Source: a bacterium (lineage in GTDB: Bacteria > Blakebacterota > Blakebacteria > Blakebacterales > Blakebacteraceae). From it: a stretch of DNA of 11,984 nt. Position numbers and translations under genes: made by a program. Positions 2,866 to 11,785 of this stretch are shown piece after piece (position 1 is the stretch's first letter; each line of letters begins with the position of its first letter). The DNA is taken from NCBI GenBank assembly GCA_025774615.1, contig JALGVQ010000124.1, forward strand, positions 1-11,984, in the 5' to 3' direction. A model generated the notes under the pieces. That model was not told the DNA's origin and ran no database searches. It worked only from the letters and a program-made list of their open reading frames with translations.

Positions 2866-2906
2866 AGCAGAGGATATATATCGATGATGCCTTGGTCCTG
2901 TCGAAC

Positions 2907-2911
2907 AGGAG
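2907..2911 (+). promoter_or_regulatory. Ribosome-binding site that sets the GH20 start
   Basis: AGGAG lies ten bases before ATG 2922. The frame also has an upstream TTG at 2892, but that codon has no such site. The residues encoded from 2922 form a clean signal peptide, so 2922 is the better start. Confidence 0.7.
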
Positions 2912-2921
2912 AACAATCACC

Positions 2922-5006
2922 ATGAGTGCAAAATCGTTCATCATTGCCGCCATCACGATCACTCTGCTTTCAGGTGGTCTCTCTCCGGTTTCCATTCAAC
3001 CGGATGGATTCGAGCTTCTGCCTCAACCGAAGCGTGTTTCCGTCGAAGAGGGGCCCGGACTCTCTGCCGGCGGTCTGCATACCCTGGCCCTCGGTGAAGG
3101 AACAAACCGGCCTGCAGTATTGCCCCCCCTGCTCGATCGATTGCCGACAGGATCAGGAACCGGACCGGGTGTGCTTGAACTGGCACTCAGCAGCAGTGGC
3201 CTGACTCCCGAGCACCCTCAAGGGTACGAGTTGGCCATCACCGAAGGGTTCGTGCGGATCACCAGCCGGGGTGAGGCTGGTCTCTTCTACGGCTGTCAGA
3301 CCCTGCAACAGCTGCTCGAGGACGCTCAAGACCGGGGCATCGAGATCCCGGCAATGCACATCATCGACTGGCCCGATATCGACTATCGGGCGGTCCATTT
3401 CGACGTTAAGCATCACCTCGACCGGATGAAGTATTACTACGATGCCATCGACCGGCTTGCGGGGATGAAGATCAATGCCGTGATCTTCGAACTCGAGGAC
3501 AAGCTGCGCTACCGCAGACAGCCGGTGGTGGGCGCGGACAACGCAATGAGCATCGAAGAGGTGGCCGCACTGACTCGCTACGCCCGTGAACGTCACATCG
3601 AGATCAGCCCCCTGATCCAGGGACTCGGGCATGCCGCTTTCATCCTGAAGCACGAGGAGTACCGCGACCTGCGTGATGATCCGGCCAGTGACTGGGCCTT
3701 TGACCCCCTGAACGAACGCACCTATGAAGTGCAGTTCGACCTCTACCTCGATGCCATCGAGGCCACTCCCGGCAGCCGTTACCTGCATATCGGGGGCGAT
3801 GAGGTGCAGGTCGGGGCCAGCGAAGCGGGCCGGGCGACCGGACTCTCATCGTTCGAGCTCCAGATGCAATGGCTCGAACGGGTCGCGGCGTTCGCGGCCG
3901 AGCACGATCGCATCCCGATCATGTGGGACGACATGCCCCTCAAGGATGCCGGCGTCTGGCCGACGACTCTGCGCAACATGCCCGGGGAGGAGTTCGACAG
4001 CATCTGGAGCGCGGCTGACAGGAACCTGGCCGCGAGCATCAATCTCTTTCCCACCAACTGCGTATACATGCGCTGGAACTACGGATCGCCTCTGGTGGAT
4101 GGGAATATCCGCACCCTGGAGTGGTACCATCAGAACGACCTGCACGCCATGGCGGCTACCGCAGCTCAGACGACCTGGCCGATCCATCCGCGACGGGGCG
4201 GTAATGTTGTACCGATCCGCGATTTCAACCGACTGACAGCCGAAAACGGACTCGACGGAATTTTGTGTACCGCCTGGGATGACTCCTCACCTCACATGGA
4301 GTTCTACTGGCGTGGCTGGATCGCGCACGCTGAATACGCCTGGTCATCCGAGGGAAGAACAATCGATGAGTTCAATGCCGCCTACGGCCAGAGGCGTTTC
4401 GGTCCCGCTGGACGGGAGCTGGCATCGGTGGTCCACGACGGGCTCGAAGCCGCATTGAACGCAGGTGACGCGATCCTGCGCGAGAGCCCGGGTCGTCGCG
4501 GTCCCTTCCGGCCAGACGAGGCGATCGAGGCGGCGCTTACCATGCCCGATCCTGAGGCACCTGGTGAGTGGAGTGAGCGCAACGCCGATCGGCTCTCCAC
4601 CGCCCGGACTGAATTCAAGCGCTATCGGGAGACCGCGGCGACCTTCGTTGATCTCCAGAGACAGGCAACCCGCGGTCGCTACGCCCTGCGCCTGATGAAC
4701 GCCCTTAATGAGGTACAGGCATACTCCTGGCGGTTACTGCTGGCCACAGCTGAATGTGACGTGAGAGGTAAGGAAGCTGCCGGAGGACGGTTGATCGCTG
4801 AGATCGAACAGTTCCAGGAAGCCGAAACGGAGTTTCTCTCCATTTTCGGCGAGACCCGCTTCCTGAACAATCCACCCGGGTATGAGCTCGACCAGAATCA
4901 CCACCCGCACCTGGCCAACGTGCGCAACGATCCGTCGTGGATCTTCGGGATCGAGTCGGGATTCTGCGCCAGGGCACTGGCCTGGCTATCTGGAGATCTA
5001 TTCTGA
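2922..5006 (+). CDS. Secreted glycoside hydrolase family 20 protein (beta-N-acetylhexosaminidase-like)
   Basis: This is probably an exo-acting periplasmic or outer-surface hydrolase that removes N-acetylhexosamine from glycans such as chitin fragments, peptidoglycan or glycoproteins. The 694-residue product starts with a signal peptide (about residues 1-25, MSAKSFIIAAITITLLSGGL). A GH20b-like N-terminal domain follows (about 28-145; LLPQPKRVSVEEG, then GEAGLFYGCQTLQQLL). The TIM-barrel catalytic domain starts at DWPDIDYRAVHFDV, where Arg156 matches the family's sugar-binding arginine. HIGGDEV carries the catalytic pair Asp293-Glu294. QGLGHAAF (His237), WDDMPL and TAWDDSSPH are further GH20 landmarks. 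The C-terminal 200 residues are helical and not assignable. GH20 uses substrate-assisted catalysis by the 2-acetamido group. The text around the barrel start differs from textbook hexosaminidases, so the exact substrate is open. It follows dctM by 56 bases and may be co-transcribed. Confidence 0.85.
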   Translation: MSAKSFIIAAITITLLSGGLSPVSIQPDGFELLPQPKRVSVEEGPGLSAGGLHTLALGEGTNRPAVLPPLLDRLPTGSGTGPGVLELALSSSGLTPEHPQGYELAITEGFVRITSRGEAGLFYGCQTLQQLLEDAQDRGIEIPAMHIIDWPDIDYRAVHFDVKHHLDRMKYYYDAIDRLAGMKINAVIFELEDKLRYRRQPVVGADNAMSIEEVAALTRYARERHIEISPLIQGLGHAAFILKHEEYRDLRDDPASDWAFDPLNERTYEVQFDLYLDAIEATPGSRYLHIGGDEVQVGASEAGRATGLSSFELQMQWLERVAAFAAEHDRIPIMWDDMPLKDAGVWPTTLRNMPGEEFDSIWSAADRNLAASINLFPTNCVYMRWNYGSPLVDGNIRTLEWYHQNDLHAMAATAAQTTWPIHPRRGGNVVPIRDFNRLTAENGLDGILCTAWDDSSPHMEFYWRGWIAHAEYAWSSEGRTIDEFNAAYGQRRFGPAGRELASVVHDGLEAALNAGDAILRESPGRRGPFRPDEAIEAALTMPDPEAPGEWSERNADRLSTARTEFKRYRETAATFVDLQRQATRGRYALRLMNALNEVQAYSWRLLLATAECDVRGKEAAGGRLIAEIEQFQEAETEFLSIFGETRFLNNPPGYELDQNHHPHLANVRNDPSWIFGIESGFCARALAWLSGDLF

Positions 5007-5641: not shown

Positions 5642-7612
5642 CTATATCAGATCAACATCCCATTTCAGCTCGACCAGCGCGGGACCGTCATGATCCAGCG
5701 CTTCACCGAGTATGGTTTCCAGACCATCGAACGTCTCGACCCGGCGCCCGAACGCACCACACAGCTCGGCAAAGGCTGCGAAATCAGGGTTGCGCAGGTC
5801 GGTCTCCCATACCGGCATGTCTCCTGAACGCTGTTCCTTGGAGATCTTCCCCAACTCGTTGTTGTTGAGCAGGATATGGGTGATATCCATCCCGTATTTC
5901 ACGGCCGTGGTGAGCTCTCCCAGGTACTGTCCGAATCCTCCATCTCCTGTGATGGCGACAACCTTGCGTCCATGGAACGGTGAACCCTCCTCCTGAGCGG
6001 CAGCCCAGGCTCCCAGTGCCGCCGGGTAGCCGAATCCGATCGATCCCAGGTAGCCCGACATCAGGACAGGCTGCCCCTTCGACTCAAAATAGCGCCCGAA
6101 GGCATAGGTGTTGTTGCCCACATCGACCGTGATGATGGCGTCGTCGGGGATCACCCGGCCGAGCACAGCGAAGATACCTGCCGCGTTGAGTCCCTGACCC
6201 CGATCATCCCCGGCACGGGAGTCCTTCTCCGTCCGCCAGATCGCCCAGCGCTCGGCGATCTCATCCCGGGTATCTGTCCACCCCTCTGTACCCTCGAGTG
6301 CTGAATGGAGCGCGGATACCGTCCGGTCGATCTCGCCCCAGACAGGAACATCCACCGCGTGGAACTTGCCCAGGATCATGGCATCGAAATCGACCTGGAT
6401 CGTCGGTTTCTTGGGTGTGATGCCGGTGTGATTGCTGAAACTCGACCCGAGGACCAGCAGACAATCCGATTCATTCATGAACCAGCTTGCCACCGGTGTC
6501 CCGCTCCGGCCCAGGACACCACAGGCCAGAGGATGATCGTCAGGGATGAGTCCCTTCGCTTTGAAGGTGGTGATCACCGGAGCGTTGAGGAGCTCTGCGA
6601 GGCGCGTGATGCCCTCCATATGAAAGCGGGCCCCATGTCCCACGATGATGGCCGGACGTTTCGAGTCCTTCAGCAGATCCACCGCATTCCCGAGCGCATC
6701 CGGAGGGGGCGCAATAGCCCTGTCGGAGAGTCGCCCATCAGGGCTCCCCGGCTCACTCCCATCCGGAGCAGCCATCTCCTGTACCTCATCGGGCAGGATC
6801 AGGTGTGAGACTCCCCGGTTCAGGACGGCACTCTTGCAGGCGAGGGTGACCAGTTCGGCGTGGTTTGAGGATGCCAGAACCGGTTGAGTCCATTGCGCCA
6901 CCCGGCCGAAGGCGGCAGTCAGGTCTATCTCCTGGAAGGCGCCGGGACCCAGGACCTGGGTCTGGACCTGACCGGTGATGGCCAGGGCGGGCGCCCGGTC
7001 CACGTTGGCATCCCACAGGCCGGTGAGCAGATTCGTGGCACCCGGTCCCGCGATCGACAGACAGGCGGCAGGACGACCGGTCAGCTTCCCGTAGGCCGAC
7101 ACGGCAAACGCCGCAGCACCTTCATGCCTGACGCCGATGTAGCGGAGTTCTTCCGCCTCGACCCGGCGCCGTATGGCGTCGGCCATGCCCAGGTTCGAAT
7201 GGCCGACCATGCCGAACACCCAGCGGATATCCCAATTGACCATGGTTCCAGCCAGCAGGTCGGAGACCGTGAGGAGAGGAACAGGTTCAGGATCGAAACC
7301 CACATAGATCCCGTCATCCCGAACTTCCACCTCGAAAGTCTCAACCGAATCGTCAAAACCGCCGGGAGGACTCCCGGTGAGGGGATGGTAGTCCCAACCA
7401 TGCCAGGGACAGCGCAGGTACCCGTTCTCGATGGCACCCTCTCCGAGTGGCCCACCCTGATGAGGGCATCTGTTGTCCAGCGCGCCGTACTTCCCTTCGA
7501 AGTGGGTCAGGCACACGGTCTGCCCCCCACAGGTCACCTGGCGGACCCGTCCCTCCTCCAGCTCGCCGTGTTCCAGTACCTTGTGCCAGACCTTTTCAGA
7601 TGACTCGGTCAT
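5642..7612 (-). CDS. Rieske [2Fe-2S] domain fused to a thiamine-diphosphate-dependent enzyme
   Basis: The protein has 656 residues. Residues 8-106 are a Rieske ferredoxin-type domain with the cluster motif C49-P-H51 and C68-P-W-H71, separated by 16 residues. Residues from about 114 to 656 form a complete ThDP enzyme of the acetolactate synthase/pyruvate oxidase superfamily. It has an N-terminal Pyr domain with catalytic Glu164 in RHEGAAAFA, a central domain (about 300-440; VDLLKDSKRPAIIVGHGARF), and a C-terminal PP domain. The ThDP/Mg motif starts GDGGFGQY at 556 and ends LLNNN at 581-585. Such enzymes decarboxylate 2-oxo acids; the attached cluster suggests electrons are taken from or given to the active site. 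The reaction is unknown. ATG 7610-7612 is preceded by AAAGGAG (7621-7627) at eight bases, a strong site. No signal peptide is present, so it acts in the cytoplasm. The gene shares strand and direction with its upstream neighbour, 117 bases away. Confidence 0.92.
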   Translation of the reverse strand: MTESSEKVWHKVLEHGELEEGRVRQVTCGGQTVCLTHFEGKYGALDNRCPHQGGPLGEGAIENGYLRCPWHGWDYHPLTGSPPGGFDDSVETFEVEVRDDGIYVGFDPEPVPLLTVSDLLAGTMVNWDIRWVFGMVGHSNLGMADAIRRRVEAEELRYIGVRHEGAAAFAVSAYGKLTGRPAACLSIAGPGATNLLTGLWDANVDRAPALAITGQVQTQVLGPGAFQEIDLTAAFGRVAQWTQPVLASSNHAELVTLACKSAVLNRGVSHLILPDEVQEMAAPDGSEPGSPDGRLSDRAIAPPPDALGNAVDLLKDSKRPAIIVGHGARFHMEGITRLAELLNAPVITTFKAKGLIPDDHPLACGVLGRSGTPVASWFMNESDCLLVLGSSFSNHTGITPKKPTIQVDFDAMILGKFHAVDVPVWGEIDRTVSALHSALEGTEGWTDTRDEIAERWAIWRTEKDSRAGDDRGQGLNAAGIFAVLGRVIPDDAIITVDVGNNTYAFGRYFESKGQPVLMSGYLGSIGFGYPAALGAWAAAQEEGSPFHGRKVVAITGDGGFGQYLGELTTAVKYGMDITHILLNNNELGKISKEQRSGDMPVWETDLRNPDFAAFAELCGAFGRRVETFDGLETILGEALDHDGPALVELKWDVDLI

Positions 7613-7729: not shown

Positions 7730-8743
7730 CTACGCCGGATCCTGGAGCAATCGACGAGTCGCTGACACTGCCTCATCAAGGAACGTCCAGGCCACTCGAC
7801 TCTGCTCCTCCTCATCAGTATACCGCGTCAGTGCCTCAGCGGTGAGAACAGCTCCGACCCAACCCTCGGTGTGCCAGTGTCCTTCAGTCAGATCGGGGAG
7901 GTCCGGAGCATCCGGGTAGGGCCATAGAGTGACATAGAAATAAGGGACGGCATAGCTGCCGTCACCCGGGGTCATTCCCATACCGATGCTTCTGGTCTTT
8001 TCAGGATCGGCGTCCCGATCGAGCGACAACAGAGCAGCGATATCGAAATGATGGGGCCAGCACCGGATCGGTGAAATCCCGGAACTATCAAGGCTCCCGC
8101 TGAATGCGGTCAGTAATCTGCTGCTGTTCCCGAACCAGTTCTGCAGATCCTGGTATTCGCGTTCCGATCGGTGAGAGAACGGTCCTCCAGAACCAACAGG
8201 ATGATCGGGAATATCTCTGGTGAACAGTGGTAGATCCCCTGTTCCTTCATGATAGCCTGCTTCATCTATCACGCCTGCAAGCCAGGCAGCAGCCTCGGCA
8301 ACACTCCGCTGATCAAGTGTCAATACCTGCAGAGTATTCATATCAGCATCGAGGAGCAGCAGTTCCATCCTCCCGATGTGGATCGCGGCATACACTGCAC
8401 GCGAACCGGCTTGCACTGCCGCGCCGCCAAGAATCGCTGGACCTTCCAGCCAGGTCAGACTGGTATGACTGTCATCCGGTACCCGCGGTACCAGGGCCTC
8501 ACCGACCGCACCCACGATCCGTGCCGCCCAGTGGGCCTGGATCCTGATATCGGTGAATGTTTCGATATCGACCGGATGCAACAATTCCCAGTCGGGAATG
8601 GGCTGTCCCACAAGCCCGAAGATGATCTTTAGAATCCCACCGGGGATATGGTGGGCCACCAGGGCCCCGGAAACACCTGAGGCGATGGCAATGGCAGAAA
8701 ATGCGATAGCGACAGGGAAGACCCACCAGAATTCCATCATCAT
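7730..8743 (-). CDS. Conserved protein of unknown function with a TauE/SafE-like N-terminal remnant
   Basis: Residues from about 52 to 337 form a soluble conserved family that I recognise only as hypothetical. Its landmarks are AHWAARIVGAVG, PDDSHTSLTWL, SPIRCWPHHFDIAAL, SIGMGMTPGDGSY, PYFYVTLWPYP and GHWHTEGWVGAVLTAE. The His- and Trp-rich blocks recall DUF5996-type proteins, but I am not sure of that label. The first 45 residues are different: FWWVFPVAIAFSAIAIASG is a membrane helix resembling the first helix of TauE/SafE permeases, and AHHIPGGILKIIFGL resembles a loop and helix from the middle of such permeases. The frame may therefore be a fusion with a shrunken permease gene. Three ATG codons in a row begin the frame (8735-8743), with GGAG 13 bases before the first, which is loose spacing. 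The true functional start may lie inside, but no good internal ATG is obvious before the conserved part. Confidence 0.75.
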   Translation of the reverse strand: MMMEFWWVFPVAIAFSAIAIASGVSGALVAHHIPGGILKIIFGLVGQPIPDWELLHPVDIETFTDIRIQAHWAARIVGAVGEALVPRVPDDSHTSLTWLEGPAILGGAAVQAGSRAVYAAIHIGRMELLLLDADMNTLQVLTLDQRSVAEAAAWLAGVIDEAGYHEGTGDLPLFTRDIPDHPVGSGGPFSHRSEREYQDLQNWFGNSSRLLTAFSGSLDSSGISPIRCWPHHFDIAALLSLDRDADPEKTRSIGMGMTPGDGSYAVPYFYVTLWPYPDAPDLPDLTEGHWHTEGWVGAVLTAEALTRYTDEEEQSRVAWTFLDEAVSATRRLLQDPA

Positions 8744-10014: not shown

Positions 10015-11624
10015 CTACTCCGGTGGAATCCTGAATTGATCGGGCCTTACCTTGAGAACCTTCCTCAGCCACTCCTCAGGGTAACCTCTGCTGCGACCGG
10101 TTATGTAGCCATCGTTATAACCCACGATCAGACTCTCCCCCAGCGCGCGCCAGCGTTCGATGTGAGACGGAGTAATCCGTGAGATATCGTACCGCGAGTT
10201 CCCGGTCGGTCTTGAGCAGTTCGATCGCCGTTTTCTCGACGGCCGGCTGCGACTCCAGGTAGTTACTCTCGATCTCGCTCTGCACCGCTCGCACATCCTC
10301 GATCATGTACGAATACATCAGGTTGGAGAAGTTGGAGACGAAATTGAACACCCACCAGGCTGAGTTCCATGAGAACTCTCGTATCGACCCGACCGTGTAC
10401 GATTCCGGTAGAACATTGATGCAGCAGTAGAAAGGAGTGTAGCAGGCGTAGTTGGTGTCATCAGGGCTGTACCACATGATCCCGCCCACCTCATCAGGGA
10501 TGCCCGACCGGGACTGGCTTACGAAGGAGAATGCTGTCTGCTGGGTCGAGATCGGACGTTCCCAGGAGTAACGGATCCCGTCCACCTCCCAGCCCAGCGG
10601 CCGCACACGGAACGGGTTTCCGAAAGGACCGGCGTCCATCCCCACCGTCATGTCGAAATCGGTACCCTCGTAGTGGTCACGCATCAGTGCGAAGACGTCG
10701 GCGACCGTTAGTTTCTCGTCGGGTCTGATGCTGAGGGGATACCGGTCGGCACCCTCAACACCCCTGTGATAGTCGGCGAGCAAGTCGAGGGAGGGGGCTG
10801 CCCGCCTGAAGATGCTCCAGACCCGTGCTTCAGTTACCCTCAGATCGGATGGCGTGGCCGGACAATGGCGTGGCCGGACAATACACTTCACAGTAACTGA
10901 AAGGATCACCTGAGTCGGGATCGTAGTAACCCTTCTCCACCGCGAATGAGATGACATTGTCGGAGTAGAGGCAGTTGTCAGGATCGTCGAGGGAGAATTC
11001 ACCGATCCGGGCCTTGTTGGCATGGGCGGAAATGTGACCGTCTGGCACCCTCGCCGCCACCCAGATAGCACCCTTGATGCCCCTTCCCGGCCCGATCATC
11101 TCCAGTATCCATGCTTCCTCCCTGTCTCCGATCGAGAATGATTCCCCGGAGGACCTGTAGCCATACTCTTCCACAAGCTCGGTCATCACCTGTATCGCTT
11201 CCCTGGCGGTCCTGGCGCGTTCCAGCGCGAGCTGCATCAGGTCAGGATAGCTCAGCAGACCATCCCGGTTGGTCAGATCACGGCGTCCGCCGAATGTGGT
11301 CTCCCCTATGGCCACCTGGTGTTCGTTGATGTATCCCACCACGGCATAGGTGTGGGGTATCTGTCTGATCTGCCCTCCGGCGATACCTTCCACAAAGGAT
11401 CCGTCGGGATGGTCTGCGGCCGGCGTATACTCCAGATGTGAGAGGAATTCGGCGTCACACGTGTAGGTGATCATCACCGAGCCGTCGACCGATGCACCGC
11501 CGGACACCAGGAGACTGGTACACGCATCGCTCTTCTGATCCGACCACTGTGCCTGGACCGTCGTGCCGATCAGAATGAACAGGATGAAGACCGTCGTGAT
11601 CGGGAAACGCATTCGGATACTCAT
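10015..11624 (-). pseudogene. Frameshifted secreted C69-family dipeptidase
   Basis: An intact copy would be a roughly 530-residue secreted dipeptidase of peptidase family C69, an N-terminal-nucleophile hydrolase. The start is ATG 11622-11624 with AAAGGA six bases upstream; an upstream in-frame GTG/ATG extension has no such site. The signal peptide MSIRMRFPIT...TTVQA is followed by DACTS, where Cys35 is the expected nucleophile. Family text includes HTYAVVGYINEHQVAIGETT, FTF-like GGRRDLTNRDGLLSYPDL and HISAHANKARIGEF. Translation leaves frame at a 16-bp tandem duplication and stops at 10830, giving about 264 residues. The body continues in another frame (TEARVWSIFRRAAPSLDL; YSWERPISTQQTAFSFVSQS; FSWNSAWWVFNFVSNF) down to YLTDYSVSH near 10177. 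It then needs a third frame for IERWRALGESLIVGYNDGY and the end YPEEWLRKVLKVRPDQF. Two lesions make function unlikely, unless the sequence is wrong or the repeat is reversible. Confidence 0.88.
10849..10882. repeat. Exact 16-bp tandem duplication inside the C69 gene
   Basis: GGCGTGGCCGGACAAT occurs at 10851-10866 and again, without a gap or mismatch, at 10867-10882. The AT before the first copy continues the repeat to 10849. Sixteen is not a multiple of three, so the second copy shifts the frame. Deleting one copy joins EVYCPATP directly to SDLRVTEARVWSIF in one frame, which is the order expected in the C69 family. Confidence 0.95.
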
Positions 11625-11785
11625 GACTGATCCTTTCGCCGGGGTGGCAGGAGGATGTACGGGCGGGACCGGCAATCAGAATCATATTAGCTATTGAAGA
11701 ATCGCATCTGCAAGCGATCTGCTCAGACCTGGCTTCTCCCCTGGTGATCCAGAAGGGAATTCAGAACAGAAGGGGACCGGTCCGA

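Follow-up and report, generated by a model that had tools for sequence, protein, structure and literature searches.

A conserved fusion of a Rieske domain to a pyruvate-oxidase-like ThDP enzyme and its linkage to a second Rieske protein

The window, by which we mean the whole stretch of 11,984 nucleotides analysed here, encodes a protein in which a Rieske [2Fe-2S] domain is joined to a complete ThDP enzyme, and this fusion is most likely a pyruvate-oxidase-type ThDP enzyme with a built-in Rieske outlet, undescribed in the literature searched. New here is a linked partner beside the fusion gene in many genomes, a second Rieske protein that carries a glutamate-synthase FMN domain and that we refer to as R-Glt. 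Known electron acceptors of ThDP enzymes include flavin, lipoamide and ferredoxin-type [4Fe-4S] clusters, and a built-in Rieske outlet would add a further electron route. Despite its generic annotation, the fusion is highly conserved in haloarchaea and in a wide range of bacterial phyla, R-Glt gives it a concrete, testable partner, and together they suggest an unstudied electron-passing pair. The preliminary description of this DNA knew of no characterised reaction for such a protein, in accordance with our own searches, in which we found no characterised member and no relevant paper on the fusion, R-Glt or DUF5996 in a literature coverage lying mostly outside the subscription journals.

A Rieske domain joined to a complete ThDP enzyme

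The fusion is read from an ATG at 7612 to a stop at 5644-5642, with no internal stop codon (Table 1). A Rieske domain joined to a complete ThDP enzyme had been proposed at 5642-7612, which the single reading frame and the four-domain Pfam order bear out with exact coordinates. The three ThDP domains match at residues 115-232 (TPP_enzyme_N), 309-435 (M) and 497-648 (C), each with an E-value between 2e-32 and 7e-29, so that the protein shows the N-M-C order, catalytic glutamate and GDG...N motif of the ThDP superfamily (PF02776/PF00205/PF02775). The Rieske domain scores 61.8 bits against PF00355, where the cut-off is 20.3, and carries the C-x-H ... C-x2-H ligands. An AlphaFold2 model built from 62 aligned sequences has a mean pLDDT of 89.7 and a pTM of 0.87, falling below 50 only at residues 1-4 and 219-225.

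Pfam shows only Rieske and TPP_enzyme domains in the fusion: the mononuclear-iron catalytic domain of Rieske non-haem iron oxygenases is absent, and there are neither POR domains nor ferredoxin-type [4Fe-4S] motifs. An Rfam scan of the window gave no match, and no promoter or terminator signals above chance were found around the gene.

Table 1. Features of the fusion gene and its upstream neighbour in the window
Feature	Coordinates	Strand	Description
Rieske-ThDP fusion gene	5642..7612	minus	single ORF, 656 aa; Pfam Rieske and TPP_enzyme_N/M/C
Rieske [2Fe-2S] domain	7370..7588	minus	residues 9-81; ligands C49, H51, C68, H71; Pfam PF00355, 6e-17
ThDP enzyme part	5669..7270	minus	residues 115-648; E164, GDG-N584 Mg/ThDP motif, nucleotide-binding middle domain; Pfam N/M/C domains
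DUF5996-like gene	7730..8743	minus	directly upstream of the fusion; protein body about 8593-7733; distant PF19459 match

The fusion is a single, widespread clade

In a scan of genome contigs we obtained 241 relatives, and the loci of the best 80 of these, with 62-71% identity, were studied further. All 80 are near full-length and have both halves in a single reading frame, and they come from Myxococcota, Acidobacteriota, Planctomycetota, Latescibacterota, Nitrospirota, Nitrospinota, Gammaproteobacteria (Thiodiazotropha), Cyanobacteria, Bacteroidota/Rhodothermota, Gemmatimonadota and Actinomycetes. Further copies are borne on plasmids, four of them haloarchaeal (63-64% identity) and one from Mycobacteroides (55%); the next plasmid matches are 35% identical and start at residue 115, lacking the Rieske part. 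Similar fusions had been said to exist in databases, and the whole fusion is present in those 80 loci as well as on the plasmids. Two complete chromosomes (CP036296 and CP070763) and circular plasmids carry it, as do the cultured organisms Acanthopleuribacter pedis, Xenococcus sp. PCC 7305, Leptothoe kymatousa and Haloferax larsenii. Public annotation calls it merely a 'thiamine pyrophosphate-binding protein'.

In a maximum-likelihood (ML) tree of the ThDP part, 20 fusions form one clade (support 100/100) on a long stem of 1.9 changes per site, with the PoxB group as its sister (95/81). Haloarchaeal and bacterial phyla are intermixed inside this clade, and the mixing suggests horizontal transfer of the fusion. 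None of the 20 nearest unfused ThDP homologues contains a Rieske motif, and the fusion was not found in a genome of the same genus as that of the window.

Cofactor ligands are invariant and the active site departs from that of pyruvate oxidase

Among 67 full-length sequences, C49, H51, C68, H71, H138, E164, F226, Q227, G325, G327, G368, S370, F392, D408, D557, K589, I590, K592, E593 and Q594 are identical in all, whereas position 584 holds Asn in 62 sequences and Asp in the other five. The Rieske ligands and catalytic glutamate that had been recognised in the window, and the Mg-binding aspartate D557, are thus fixed in this set, and because the cofactor ligands do not vary across phyla, both halves look active, as the preliminary description had judged.

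The nearest solved relatives of the Rieske half are soluble ferredoxins of oxygenases, CarAc of carbazole dioxygenase (1vck, 1.6e-10) and that of toluene-4-monooxygenase (T4MO; 1vm9, 1e-7). The cluster environment reads HGW, where bc1 Rieske proteins of high potential have HGS-x-Y, so the potential should be low.

The ThDP half aligns with PoxB by phmmer (2e-62), with E50, F112, D433 and N460 of PoxB falling on E164, F226, D557 and N584. We take residues 251-254 (T251-I254), 274-278 (including F276) and 292 (D292) to be the FAD contacts of PoxB; these align with L367-S370, 390-394 (F392) and D408 of the fusion, almost all of them invariant among the 67 sequences, though this pocket is also common to ADP-binding relatives. 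The middle domain is likely to bind FAD. In contrast, Phe465 of PoxB, a residue that shifts into the active site and participates in electron transfer from ThDP to FAD, is replaced by Lys589 in all 67 sequences. The curated models also fall short: the best, PRK08611, reaches 372.6 of 742 bits, the PoxB model 288.8 of 792, and the acetohydroxyacid synthase (AHAS) model TIGR00118 269 of 538, below its cut-off. With curated models at half their cut-off and a key residue changed, the fusion fails membership of the pyruvate oxidase family by sequence, pyruvate-oxidase-like as it appears to be.

A second Rieske fusion, R-Glt, is linked to the first

By clustering the open reading frames of the best 80 of the 241 loci, we found R-Glt, a Rieske domain joined to a glutamate-synthase FMN domain (PF01645, 1e-89; 548 aa in locus L006). 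Its gene is linked to the fusion gene in 46 of these 80 loci, always on the same strand, or in 40 of the 69 that have more than 1.7 kb of upstream sequence. The gap is at most 151 bp in 33 of the 46, and the two genes touch or overlap in L013 and L034. Across 39 aligned copies, all four Rieske ligands are invariant, as are the three cysteines that bind [3Fe-4S] in glutamate synthase. Public annotation names the protein merely 'glutamate synthase-related protein'.

The association extends to whole genomes, with R-Glt present in 41 of 49 fusion-bearing genomes versus 3 of 97 remote genomes lacking the fusion (Fisher p 1.5e-24, the controls being phylogenetically unmatched). Within one class, R-Glt occurs in 26 of 77 genomes and the fusion in 2, both of which have R-Glt, leaving 24 of 75 genomes with R-Glt and no fusion. 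R-Glt is thus often alone, while the fusion is seldom without R-Glt. No common function was found among the neighbours of R-Glt in fusion-less genomes. A search of the genome from which the window comes, 82% complete, turned up no R-Glt.

Other neighbours of the fusion

Among the window and the best 80 of 241 relatives, 26 of the 81 loci have a DUF5996-like gene next to the fusion (the window and 25 others), and in several it is placed between R-Glt and the fusion. We call it 'like' because the window protein scores 20.1 bits against PF19459, below the 25-bit cut-off; 15 of 19 family members match PF19459 at E<=0.1, some reaching 1e-56, and a genome-wide search with PF19459 misses the divergent neighbours of the fusion. 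A model of the protein (pLDDT 93.8) had no Foldseek match in the PDB at E <0.001, and its best VIA match had a Z of 5.1; neither comparison was convincing enough to suggest a function. In the window, the first ~45 codons of this reading frame (8600-8743, minus) resemble a TauE/SafE remnant, 78% identical to a Haloferax permease over 23 aa (residues 22-44) and about 41% identical to its residues 98-119. This pattern would fit an exporter gene that lost an internal segment and was fused in frame to the DUF5996-like gene. A role in sulfonate metabolism, with an Xsc-like ThDP enzyme and the TauE remnant, was considered and rejected: the Xsc model gives the fusion merely 193 of 676 bits, and apart from the window remnant nothing at the other loci matches the TauE proteins of the haloarchaea.

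A Na+/H+ antiporter gene (CPA1) follows the fusion in 15 of the best 80 loci, and also in Halorarius; from this and the many marine or halophilic carriers, a salt or glutamate-osmolyte role was considered. A third Rieske protein, in which the Rieske domain is fused to a ferric-reductase/MsrQ-like membrane domain, lies within 6 kb in about ten loci (L004 1584-3140, L027 8767-9816, L036, L047, L067 and others); after it comes a protein of ~290 aa with weak similarity to DUF5818. In three cyanobacterial loci the fusion adjoins a flavodoxin-like gene for an NADPH-dependent FMN reductase (L061 2069-2824, L074 8020-8775 and L078 8191-8946). On plasmids (L105-L109, haloarchaeal and mycobacterial), the haloarchaeal fusions sit in regions with many redox and metal genes (MerA-like, DsrE, dihydrolipoyl dehydrogenase, TauE), and the Mycobacteroides plasmid (L107) has a flavodoxin gene and a cation:proton antiporter nearby. 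A fixed pathway operon that might reveal the substrate was sought and rejected, the flanks being diverse beyond R-Glt, the DUF5996-like gene, the CPA1 antiporter and the ferric-reductase-Rieske protein, and in a Pfam tally of 223 neighbours no family exceeded three members in either set.

Elsewhere in the window, complete TRAP transporter genes DctP, DctQ and DctM (34-2865, plus) precede a GH20 hexosaminidase-like gene (2892-5006), which together look like an amino-sugar uptake unit. A peptidase C69 gene (10115-11675, minus) is split into overlapping frames, 10830-11675 and 10115-11071, that match consecutive parts of PF03577; the split appears to be a frameshift, in the gene or the assembly.

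A proposed electron outlet and its alternatives

We tentatively favour, at a little short of an even chance, a soluble ThDP 2-oxo-acid oxidoreductase, probably FAD-assisted, that uses its Rieske cluster as an electron outlet. In this mechanism the ThDP would decarboxylate a 2-oxo acid, and the resulting carbanion would be oxidised, probably via FAD bound in the middle domain. The N-terminal low-potential Rieske cluster would then take the electrons in place of the quinone or O2 step of pyruvate oxidases, and they would leave singly, most plausibly to the Rieske domain of R-Glt or to a redox carrier common to both proteins; within R-Glt, the Rieske and [3Fe-4S] clusters would lead to FMN. This outlet model draws on the intact domains and invariant ligands, the redox pyruvate oxidases among the best family, fold and tree neighbours, the conserved FAD anchors, the likeness of the Rieske domain to electron-shuttle ferredoxins, and the linked second Rieske protein with its FMN domain and [3Fe-4S] cysteines. 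Counted against it are the invariant Lys589, the HKA synthases that superpose as well as PoxB, the half-cut-off PRK08611 score, the many genomes with R-Glt and no fusion, and the failure to find R-Glt in the window genome, with controls phylogenetically unmatched. The data establish the fusion itself, its conservation, its fixed cofactor ligands, its single clade and its genomic link to R-Glt and DUF5996-like genes, while the redox chemistry, the FAD, the direction of electron flow, the partner and the substrate belong to the model.

An oxidative decarboxylase passing electrons through iron-sulfur had been proposed from the window; it stands as the reading that comes most naturally and is strengthened by the linked R-Glt, while the oxidation of a 2-oxo acid is a part that we infer, in an active site that differs from pyruvate oxidase in Lys589 and the invariant His138. 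The accompanying contrast with flavin-based pyruvate oxidases finds no support, as the nearest relatives are FAD-dependent pyruvate oxidases and the PoxB FAD anchors are conserved; a Rieske exit added to the flavin route appears more likely than a flavin-free route. An extension of the outlet model that we consider doubtful is that the two Rieske clusters dock, so that 2-oxo-acid oxidation on ThDP would pay for reductive amination at the FMN and [3Fe-4S] centres of R-Glt. If so, the synthesis of an amino acid (glutamate) would be driven by carbon oxidation, with no need for NAD(P)H or ferredoxin.

A rather unlikely alternative makes the ThDP half a carboligase or hydrolase without redox function, comparable to HKA synthase, AHAS or cyclohexane-1,2-dione hydrolase, with the Rieske domain as a redox or oxygen sensor switch, or as a structural element. 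The HKA synthases 8xod, 8x3x and 8x3z are structurally as near to the fusion as PoxB (Z 41.6-42.0), Lys589 and His138 depart from the pyruvate oxidase active site, and AHAS is known to hold FAD in a structural role. The tree speaks for a different affinity, as it places the fusion beside the PoxB group and not beside CsmA, although CsmA is a long branch; the linkage to a second Rieske redox enzyme and the known shuttles among the closest Rieske relatives likewise count against this alternative.

Improbable, in our view, is an inward flow, in which a reductase would supply electrons to the Rieske cluster and, through it, to a reductive or oxygen-dependent reaction at the ThDP/flavin site, the same reductase serving R-Glt. 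It would fit the oxygenase-feeding role of the nearest solved Rieske ferredoxins, the FMN reductase genes beside the fusion in three cyanobacterial loci, the flavodoxin on the Mycobacteroides plasmid, and an R-Glt that by homology is a reductive FMN enzyme in need of electrons. However, the fusion lacks a non-haem iron domain, no reductase gene is constant in its neighbourhoods, and ThDP carbanions normally donate electrons.

A chimera of assembly or binning, or a dead gene, can practically be discarded: the window, a single contig, comes from a fragmented assembly (324 contigs, 82% complete), but the faults named in advance, an assembly error and loss of ligands in relatives, are contradicted by an identical join in 80 contigs of independent genomes, complete chromosomes and circular plasmids, by ligands kept in 67 of 67 full-length homologues, and by the single clade.

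Comparison with known systems

PoxB of E. coli (3eya/3ey9) and the C. glutamicum pyruvate:quinone oxidoreductase (9ev6) share with the fusion the three-domain ThDP fold (VIA-align Z 42.2 and 40.4, the former over 516 residues of 3eya), the catalytic glutamate, the G-x-FQE loop, the aligned FAD-anchor positions and the GDG...N motif. They differ in that identity is only 29% and 25% and the fusion has an extra N-terminal Rieske domain. The C-terminal membrane segment of PoxB has no counterpart in the fusion, which ends at residue 656 with the end of the C domain, and the invariant Lys589 stands where PoxB has Phe465. The HKA synthases CsmA (8x3z) and BbmA (8x3x) resemble the fusion in fold (Z about 42) and middle-domain sequence, whereas their solved chains have no Rieske domain, they are titled synthases, and they are distant on the tree. 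The fusion would resemble pyruvate:ferredoxin oxidoreductase in passing electrons from a ThDP intermediate to iron-sulfur, though that enzyme has another domain architecture and [4Fe-4S] clusters.

The Rieske ferredoxins CarAc and T4MO match the fusion over the whole domain and in their C-x-H ... C-x2-H ligands; they are separate shuttle proteins for oxygenases, whereas in the fusion the domain is attached to a ThDP enzyme. For R-Glt, the counterpart is the glutamate synthase large subunit (1ea0, 7mfm), whose FMN domain and [3Fe-4S] spacing C-x5-C-x4-C are both found in R-Glt; unlike glutamate synthase, R-Glt has neither a glutaminase domain nor the NADPH subunit, and it bears an N-terminal Rieske domain.
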